Source of the DNA: Chloroflexota bacterium
GTDB taxonomy: Bacteria; Chloroflexota; Dehalococcoidia; SHYB01
DNA: 55,820 bases
NCBI GenBank assembly: GCA_016875535.1
Contig: VGPF01000009.1
Location: 1-55,820 of the forward strand
Direction of reading: 5' to 3'
This document shows positions 149-28,648 of this stretch, piece by piece. The notes under the pieces are model-generated. The model was not told the DNA's origin. It made no database searches and worked only from the letters and a program-made list of their open reading frames with translations. A program made the translations under genes and the position numbers. How positions within the stretch are numbered: position 1 is the stretch's first letter; every line of letters begins with the position of its first letter.

Positions 149-1162
149 ATGAGTTCTCCCCTTCGCTCTGCCCAAGTCGCCGTTGAAGGCCCCGTCGAAG
201 CCATCGAGGCCTGCTTCGAGCGCGGCTGGACCGATGGCCTCCCCGTCATGCCGCCTACGCCCCAGCGCGTCGCCGAGTTCCTGGACGCCGCGGGCCTCGA
301 TCCCGCCGATGTCATCGGCTCCGTCCCCACCCGCGAAGTCGTCATCACCGCCGAAAAGGTCGCCGCCAACGCTGTCATGGCCGGCTGCCTCCCGGAATAC
401 ATGCCCGTCGTCGTCGCCGCCTGCCGCGCCATGTGCGAAGAGCCCTTCAACCTCCACGCCAACTCCGGCACCCTCTCCGGCGCCGCCCAGATCATCGTCG
501 TCAACGGCCCCATCCGCAAAGCGCTTGCCGTCAACTGCCGCGATGGCGCCTTCGGCCCCGGCTTCCGAGCCAATGCCACCATCGGCCGCGCCGTCCGCCT
601 CGTCATCCGCAACGTTGCCCGCTCCATCCCCGGCTTCCTCGACCGCGCCTCCTTCTCCCAACCCGGCCGCTTCACCTGGTGCTTCGGTGAGAACGAAGAG
701 GAGAGCCCCTGGACGCCCCTGCACGTCGAGCGCGGCCTCTCCCCGGATTCGAGCGCCGTCACCCTCTTCGCCGTTATGGACTCCGTCAAGGCCACCGGCC
801 TCCGGCCCGATTCGCCCCAGTCTTTCCTCGATCGTGCCGCCTTCCTCGTCCGCAGCGTCTGGACCTACGAGCAGACCTCCAGCTACGATGCCGTCCGCAG
901 CCTCCTCGTCGTCATCGGGTGGGAGCACATGGAGCTCTGCCGCAAGGCTGGCTGGACCAAGGCTAACATCCGCGACTATCTCTTCCCCAAGCTCCGCGCC
1001 CCTACGAGCGGCTGGGAGTTCCGCTCCCCCATCACCAGCCCGGACAACATCCTCGTCGTCGCAGCGGGCGGCCGCGCCATGATGCAGAGCTGGTTCATGG
1101 TGCCCTTCCCGAGCCACGGCCCCGTGACGCGCATCATCGAACCTCCACGGAGGAGCCCATGA
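149..1162 (+). CDS. Conserved protein paired with UGSC selenoprotein
   Basis: A 337-residue protein of unknown biochemical role. Family-like features are a GWTDGLPVMPPT segment near residue 28, a central AGCLPEYMPVVVAA segment, IVVNGPIRKAL, and an ENEEESPWTPLHVERG segment. This conserved arrangement is known to me from genes that sit beside UGSC genes. No signal peptide or membrane span is seen. The ATG at 149 is chosen because everything upstream in frame is tRNA and terminator sequence. It lacks a Shine-Dalgarno site, consistent with a leaderless start. The stop overlaps the next ATG by four bases (ATGA), so the two genes are translationally coupled. I infer that it works with the redox-active UGSC protein. 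Confidence 0.8.
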   Translation: MSSPLRSAQVAVEGPVEAIEACFERGWTDGLPVMPPTPQRVAEFLDAAGLDPADVIGSVPTREVVITAEKVAANAVMAGCLPEYMPVVVAACRAMCEEPFNLHANSGTLSGAAQIIVVNGPIRKALAVNCRDGAFGPGFRANATIGRAVRLVIRNVARSIPGFLDRASFSQPGRFTWCFGENEEESPWTPLHVERGLSPDSSAVTLFAVMDSVKATGLRPDSPQSFLDRAAFLVRSVWTYEQTSSYDAVRSLLVVIGWEHMELCRKAGWTKANIRDYLFPKLRAPTSGWEFRSPITSPDNILVVAAGGRAMMQSWFMVPFPSHGPVTRIIEPPRRSP

Positions 1163-1710
1163 CCATAGCGGCCAAGCCCTACATCATCCTCGACCCGTCA
1201 TCCGGCCCCCTCAAGGGCAAAGACCCACGGCCCATGGCCCGGCGCAAGCCCACTCTGGATGGCGCGGTACTCGGCCTCCTCGCCAACGGCAAGTCCAATA
1301 GCGGCGAGTTCCTTGAGGCCGTCTACGAAGAGCTTTCGAAGAGCTTCGAGTTGCCTGCGCCGCTTCGCTTCCGCAAGGACAGCGTCTCCGTGCCGCCCAG
1401 AAAGGCCGATTTTGAGCGCCTCACCAGGGAAGCGGGGGCCGTCGTCACCGCCATAGGCGACTGAGGCTCCTGCTCGTCGCGCAGTATGCGCGACTGCATC
1501 GAGCTCGAGTGGACCGGCGTCCCCTCCGTCGCTATCATCGCCGAACCCCTGGTCGGCTCCGCCGAGGCCATGAAGCGCGTCAGCGGCGTCCCCGATTACG
1601 ACTACGTCGTCGTCCCATTCCCCGTCGGCGGCCTCAGCCGCGAGATGCTCCAGCTGCGTGCGCGGGAGATCGCCCCCAAAATCATCCACCTCCTCACCGC
1701 CAAGCGCTAA
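1159..1710 (+). CDS. UGSC-family selenoprotein (in-frame TGA = Sec102)
   Basis: The reading frame from ATG 1159 (GGAGG five to nine bases upstream) reaches TGA at 1462-1464 and continues without a break to TAA at 1708-1710, giving 183 residues if the TGA is decoded. The codons around it spell A-I-G-D-U-G-S-C, which is the hallmark of the UGSC family, where U is selenocysteine in some members and Cys in others. Sequence after the TGA (RDCIELEWTGVPSVAIIAEP) is family-like, so both halves belong to one protein. A 7-bp stem-loop starts 11 bases after the TGA. The family is a presumed thiol/selenol redox protein with unknown substrate. Gene callers will split it at 1464. A nonsense mutation is the alternative, but the exact U-G-S-C placement argues against that. 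Confidence 0.9.
1476..1494 (+). promoter_or_regulatory. Candidate bacterial SECIS element of the UGSC gene
   Basis: GTCGCGC (1476-1482) and GCGCGAC (1488-1494) pair perfectly around the loop AGTAT, which contains a G. The apical loop begins 18 bases after the TGA, within the spacing known for SelB-binding SECIS stems. A few outer pairs (1471-1473 with 1496-1498) can extend the stem. Confidence 0.7.
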
Positions 1711-27982: not shown

Positions 27983-28648
27983 ATGATCCGCGGCTTCCGC
28001 ACCCTGCACTTTGTGGGGCCGTGCGTCACGGTCTTCGGCTCGGCGCGATTTTCTGAAGCCAATCCGAATTATGCGCTTGGTCGCGCCGCTGGCTTTGAGC
28101 TGGCGAAGGCGGGCTTCACGGTGGTCACCGGCGGCGGCCCCGGCATCATGGAGGCGGCGAACCGAGGCGCGAGGGAGGCTGGCGGCCACAGCGTGGGCTG
28201 CGGCATCAAGCTGCCGATGGAGCAGGCGCGCAACCCCTACATAGACACGTGGGTGGAGTTTCACTATTTCTTTGTGCGCAAGGTGATGCTCGTCAAGTAT
28301 TCCTACGGCTTTGTCGTGCTGCCCGGCGGCTTCGGCACGATGGACGAGGTCTTTGAGACGGCGACGCTGATCCAGACGGGCAAGATCAGGGACTTTCCTC
28401 TGGTGCTGTTGGGCAAGGACTTCTGGACGCCCATCCTGAACTTCATGCGCGACCGCATGGTTGGCTACGGGACCATCAATGCGGAGGATATTGACCGACT
28501 GATCGTCACCGACGATCCAAAAGAGGCGGCGGTGCGGATCCGCCAGACGGCCTTCACGAAGTTCGGGGTGCGGTTCGCAAGGCCGAAGAAGCGGCGGTGG
28601 TGGCTTCTGGAGGGCAGGGCTAAGCGGCGGCCATCGCCTCAGGGCTAG
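27983..28648 (+). CDS. LOG-family Rossmann-fold protein (TIGR00730 type)
   Basis: A 221-residue segment from ATG 27983 with the whole LOG domain: VTVFGSARF, TGGGPGIMEAANRGARE, and the PGGFGTMDEVFE motif with its catalytic Arg/Glu neighbourhood. LOG enzymes are nucleotide 5'-monophosphate phosphoribohydrolases (cytokinin-activating type); many bacterial members have unknown physiological substrates. It begins 12 bases after the in-frame TGA that cuts off its N-terminal arm. A product starting here would keep the catalytic domain and may still work. It converges on the CoA-transferase operon with a four-base overlap. Confidence 0.82.
   Translation: MIRGFRTLHFVGPCVTVFGSARFSEANPNYALGRAAGFELAKAGFTVVTGGGPGIMEAANRGAREAGGHSVGCGIKLPMEQARNPYIDTWVEFHYFFVRKVMLVKYSYGFVVLPGGFGTMDEVFETATLIQTGKIRDFPLVLLGKDFWTPILNFMRDRMVGYGTINAEDIDRLIVTDDPKEAAVRIRQTAFTKFGVRFARPKKRRWWLLEGRAKRRPSPQG

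Follow-up and report, generated by a model that had tools for sequence, protein, structure and literature searches.

The window analysed here, a stretch of 55,820 nt from the genome of a bacterium of the phylum Chloroflexota, almost certainly carries at positions 1159-1710 a single UGSC-family selenoprotein gene, in which the UGA codon at 1462-1464 is translated as selenocysteine (Sec). UGSC is an established family, which means that this gene is not in itself new. The features discussed below are as follows.

149-1162, + strand: partner gene of UGSC ('Unknown_1'-type), 337 aa, stop TGA at 1160-1162; recognised from homologues beside or fused to UGSC
1149-1155, + strand: Shine-Dalgarno-like GGAGGAG ahead of the UGSC start (sequence)
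1159-1162, + strand: ATGA overlap, in which the ATG of UGSC shares bases with the partner stop TGA at 1160-1162 (sequence)
1159-1710, + strand: UGSC-family selenoprotein gene, 183 aa, Sec at residue 102, stop TAA at 1708-1710 (PF24696, 160 bits)
1462-1464, + strand: in-frame UGA read as Sec, the U of UGSC (homology, Sec machinery)
1476-1494, + strand: bSECIS hairpin, 8-bp stem 1476-1483/1487-1494 with loop GUA 1484-1486 (fold and family covariation)
1721-2884, + strand: Amidohydro_2 metal-dependent hydrolase after a 10-nt gap, probably on the same transcript (PF04909, 93 bits)

Translated conventionally, the open reading frame at 1159-1464 yields 101 aa up to the TGA at 1462-1464, and the same frame is open to the TAA at 1708-1710. 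With the TGA read as Sec, the protein contains the motif AIGD-U-G-S-C with U at residue 102, and the Pfam family PF24696 ('UGSC') matches across the TGA from residue 10 to 180 (E 6.1e-47; 160.4 bits against a gathering cut-off of 25). The initial annotation, which had placed the TGA exactly on the U of U-G-S-C, was thus borne out; it was also right that coding continues beyond the TGA, but the continuation is 81 residues past the U and not 82. The NCBIfam equivalog NF041046, compared with Cys in place of U, gave E 3.5e-34 and 117.9 bits, which is below its curated cut-off of 125, so that an automatic pipeline relying on NF041046 could miss this copy. In the UGSC alignment (A1), the Sec position (C/U 102) and C105 are invariant. 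Nearly every relative found has a TGA at the same codon: among these relatives, 83 distinct UGSC genes carry it, and only two Cys forms were seen. Taken together, the PF24696 match and the same-codon TGA in relatives exclude a chance origin of the read-through frame. At L049 (G000:C10) and L056, a paralogue was observed in which Cys replaces Sec and the motif is altered to C-W-G-T; it, too, adjoins a partner gene.

The host genome (2.5 Mb, 98% complete) was searched for the Sec machinery, the total absence of which, according to the initial annotation, would have refuted the selenoprotein, and all components sought were found: selA (436 bits), selB (334 bits), selD (371 bits), which itself carries an in-frame TGA, and tRNA-Sec (66 bits), also called as tRNA-SeC by ARAGORN. 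TGA also serves as an ordinary stop in this genome, as in the upstream partner gene, which ends in the TGA of the ATGA overlap. A genome-wide reassignment of UGA to another amino acid would equally allow the UGA in the UGSC gene to be read through, but the partner gene terminates at a TGA that overlaps the UGSC start, tRNA-Sec and SelB are present, and the hairpin covariation described below would be left unexplained; we therefore regard such a reassignment as extremely unlikely. On the same strand as the tRNA-Sec gene, a thioredoxin domain match (G000:C2:14845-15270; L003, L250) ends about 33 nt before it.

The stem-loop that had been noted at SECIS distance downstream of the UGA is real, although its stem comprises 8 bp rather than the 7 bp first described; the loop G, the first base of GUA, lies 20 nt after the UGA. 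Taken alone, the hairpin is unremarkable against dinucleotide shuffles (z -1.14; 27 of 200 shuffles fold equally well) because the sequence is GC-rich, and against synonymous recoding of the single gene p was 0.04. It is the family-wide covariation that makes the hairpin convincing. In 55 sequences all six core pairs covary, with 50 double-change cells compared with 19.1 +/- 2.8 after shuffling and 30 at most in slid registers. Across the 83 UGSC genes, the 42 nt after the UGA were more stable than synonymous recodings (mean z -1.11), whereas eight control sites within these genes gave mean z values between -0.37 and +0.13. At the expected distance, 75 of the 83 form a hairpin whose loop carries G as its first or second base (counted post-UGA only). 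The clearest sign of selection on the RNA is a synonymous codon choice: the Val codon at +8 was GTC in 34 sequences and GTG in 7 when the pairing base was G, and GTC in none and GTG in 63 when it was C, so that the choice fits the pairing base in 97 of 104 cases (p 7.7e-21, a value too small since the sequences are related, with an unambiguous direction). An Rfam scan around the UGSC gene gave no match to a SECIS family. If the TGA at 1462-1464 were a true stop and 1159-1710 a decaying pseudogene or the product of a sequencing error, an isolated in-frame TGA would look just the same; the TGA, however, recurs at this codon in the 83 distinct genes, with two Cys forms only, and, across unrelated phyla, in the UGSC genes that accompany the partner at 66 of 80 loci, the SECIS covaries and the Sec machinery is present, which leaves this explanation a practically negligible probability. 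The selenoprotein reading is accordingly supported by homology across the TGA, by a complete Sec machinery and by a covarying SECIS.

The partner gene at 149-1162 has no match to any Pfam or NCBIfam family. In PMC2398784, a domain named 'Unknown_1' was reported to be fused to UGSC, and the window partner probably corresponds to it. Of the 83 distinct UGSC genes in relatives, 69 are either fused to a partner homologue or have one on their own strand no more than 400 nt away. To avoid circularity, the genome collection was also searched with the partner only, and the best 80 loci were examined: 66 carry a UGSC gene with an in-frame TGA, UGSC was not detected at 13, and the 80 together span Actinomycetota, Chloroflexota, several proteobacterial groups, Binatia, Nitrospinota, Gemmatimonadota and others. 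The order of the genes varies, with the partner first in the window and UGSC first in the fused proteins (UGSC-partner). Judged by gene arrangement from both sides, these data show that UGSC and partner have evolved as one unit, either as neighbours in one order or the other or as a fusion; the conserved partner proposed at the outset is thus correct, and the case for it is stronger than could be seen then. Among the loci with a partner but no detectable UGSC in the DNA examined are L161, L163, L187 (Poribacteria), L188 and L199; the poribacterial partner loci adjoin apparent CBS-domain proteins and a 2-oxoacid oxidoreductase, and the partner at L199 adjoins an apparent glycyl-radical (pyruvate formate-lyase-like) enzyme.

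Partner proteins are highly conserved around NAVMAGC and RANATIGRA, and their alignment (A7) contains two conserved cysteines, C80 within the near-invariant NAVMAGC and the near-invariant C178. The predicted model of a natural UGSC-partner fusion scored well (pLDDT 91.8, pTM 0.91; the last two residues of the input lie at and beyond what is probably a true TGA stop), and in fold searches with this model the matches were taken up by the UGSC domain. Sequence searches of the PDB with UGSC, partner, GrdB and PrdB-like proteins returned nothing credible, and hence no GrdB or PrdB structure with which the UGSC model could be compared.

Profile comparisons suggest that the Sec-bearing half of UGSC is very probably kin, at the superfamily level, to the Sec domain of glycine reductase selenoprotein B (GrdB) and of PrdB-like proteins. 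With hhalign, UGSC matched GrdB at E 3.6e-7 with Sec aligned on Sec, and still at 3e-6 when the motif was masked, while reversed or shuffled controls reached only E 0.09 or worse for GrdB and 0.03 or worse for PrdB-like proteins. Larger alignments (137 UGSC, 13 GrdB and 47 PrdB-like sequences) gave E 2.2e-8 (95.3%) against GrdB and E 1e-8 (95.7%) against PrdB-like proteins, a link that stops short of certainty and is confined to the Sec-bearing half, roughly 70-90 residues long. These families have in common the ungapped string U-G-[ST]-x-T...E-L-E-K-x-G-[IV]-P. Like UGSC, GrdB (PF07355) has a C-terminal Sec domain with U-G-[ST]-x, the ungapped E-L-E-K-x-G-[IV]-P and then a P-x-G segment, but UGSC is without the N-terminal half of GrdB, and its partner, when compared with GrdB and GrdE, showed no relation to either. 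The idea that the partner is the N-terminal half of GrdB or the equivalent of GrdE was rejected (hhalign to GrdE, E 0.49), so that nothing here implies the pyruvoyl chemistry that glycine and proline reductases use. In these comparisons, which covered GrdB and GrdE, a pyruvoyl partner of the PrdA type was not identified either; a different gene may provide this function. A search of this genome with the PF07355 profile, which ends just before the Sec, gave no match; as a GrdE-like partner was not seen either, UGSC is not a GrdB. PrdB of D-proline reductase and the small PrdB-like UxxC selenoproteins resemble UGSC in being small Sec proteins with UxxC, but differ from it in the N-terminal part. 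According to the review PMC13188914, the reductases of which GrdB and PrdB are part act on amino acids by reductive cleavage. In the passages on UGSC read from papers that also mention glycine reductase, no link between the two is drawn. Related genomes often encode small PrdB-like selenoproteins (UPxC, USGC) that stand alone (L078-L097); PF07355 covers only the part of these proteins that precedes the UGA, so annotation would truncate them.

UGSC has been described as thioredoxin-like and of unknown function in PMC2398784 and PMC13188914, and a role as a thiol/selenol oxidoreductase, with protein disulfides or peroxides as its substrates, would agree with this published assignment and with the resemblance of UxxC to redox motifs. 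The AlphaFold2 model of UGSC (pLDDT 93), however, predicts a Rossmann-like sandwich of five alternating beta/alpha units, which does not favour a thioredoxin. In this model the Sec sits where the helix that follows strand 3 begins, and a Cys comes three residues later. Its Foldseek and VIA matches were to flavodoxin-, CheY- and cobalamin-domain-like folds, an arrangement that is common and would prove no specific kinship; no thioredoxin was among the fold matches listed, though a missing match excludes no fold. At the sequence level, hhalign of UGSC against the genome's own thioredoxin gave E 0.056 over 6 columns, compared with E 1.5e-4 over 83 columns against one GrdB sequence. Nor would a general reductase be expected to have a dedicated partner and many paralogues, and we consider the thioredoxin-like function quite improbable.

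The best overall explanation, which we rate slightly above even, is that partner and UGSC together constitute a two-component, selenolate-dependent reductive cleavage enzyme; the reductive-cleavage chemistry, taken by itself, is proposed tentatively, at a little under even chances. In such an enzyme, the partner would hold a small substrate, the Sec selenolate would attack the carbon bearing the leaving group (C-N, C-S, C-O or C-halogen), the Cys at +3 would resolve the product as an Se-S bond, and cellular thiols or thioredoxin would reduce this bond. UGSC paralogues may differ in substrate and may belong to gene clusters of various kinds, for catabolism or for transport. Alternatively, UGSC could be a redox or metal-binding accessory subunit, with the catalytic site for small molecules in the partner (NAVMAGC and the second Cys), since the partner, the larger of the two subunits, is very conserved, and since Poribacteria have it without UGSC. 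The invariance of Sec and the +3 Cys in the UGSC alignment and the alignment of the UGSC Sec with that of GrdB/PrdB argue against a merely accessory role, which we judge unlikely. In the papers found on UGSC proteins, no reaction or substrate is shown for any of them, and UGSC proteins are counted among the most abundant selenoproteins of aquatic metagenomes (PMC2398784). The probable GrdB/PrdB kinship and the nearly constant partner make the question of the UGSC reaction testable, with reductive cleavage as the candidate.

A large expansion of the family was found in a metagenome-assembled genome of the same class as the window genome, JACPQD01 (G031; Chloroflexi bacterium NC_groundwater_644, from groundwater, rated 96% complete and 7% contaminated). 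A first search listed 207 UGSC candidates, 22 of which were scored. In the 1.49 Mb then scanned (about 30%), 85 distinct UGSC genes carried UGA in the Sec position, and for 82 a partner lay no more than 500 nt away. Ten more lie on unsampled contigs, giving at least 95; the sampled contigs were partly picked for holding UGSC genes, so these numbers allow no linear extrapolation to the whole genome. The motif variants are UGSC, UGGC, UGAC and UGTC (contigs C9, C99, C97 and others; L253-L332). No Sec machinery genes were found in the sampled 30%. The largest bacterial selenoproteomes given in PMC13188914 hold 57 and 63 selenoproteins of all kinds; the count of UGSC genes in this genome alone exceeds these published maxima and needs checking. 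We hold it an evenly balanced possibility that UGSC and partner represent an unrecognised branch of GrdB/PrdB selenolate reductases, without a recognisable pyruvoyl subunit and with many substrates, and that the selenoproteins of this kind in one groundwater Chloroflexota genome number roughly 100 or more, which would make its selenoproteome the largest known in a bacterium.

The amidohydrolase downstream of UGSC had been put forward as a lead to the reaction of the family. An orthologue with 75% identity lies directly downstream of UGSC in one other genus (L113), which, together with the 10-nt gap, makes partner, UGSC and amidohydrolase a locally conserved unit; the amidohydrolase may act in the same pathway in this lineage. 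As a general partner of UGSC it was rejected: this 2.5-Mb genome contains 63 PF04909 genes, and among the 92 genes neighbouring UGSC in operons only 3 are PF04909 members, counting the one in this window. The lead thus has synteny in its favour but no generality, and overall is a weak one. SBP_bac_5 (12 of 92) and CoA_transf_3 (8 of 92) beside UGSC were likewise not clearly above background, because both families are huge in these genomes. Elsewhere in the window, positions 1-62 hold the apparent 3' half of a tRNA gene cut by the contig end, and at 28471-28553 ARAGORN calls a tRNA-Gly with anticodon ACC, possibly a miscall; this anticodon is unusual for tRNA-Gly in bacteria.
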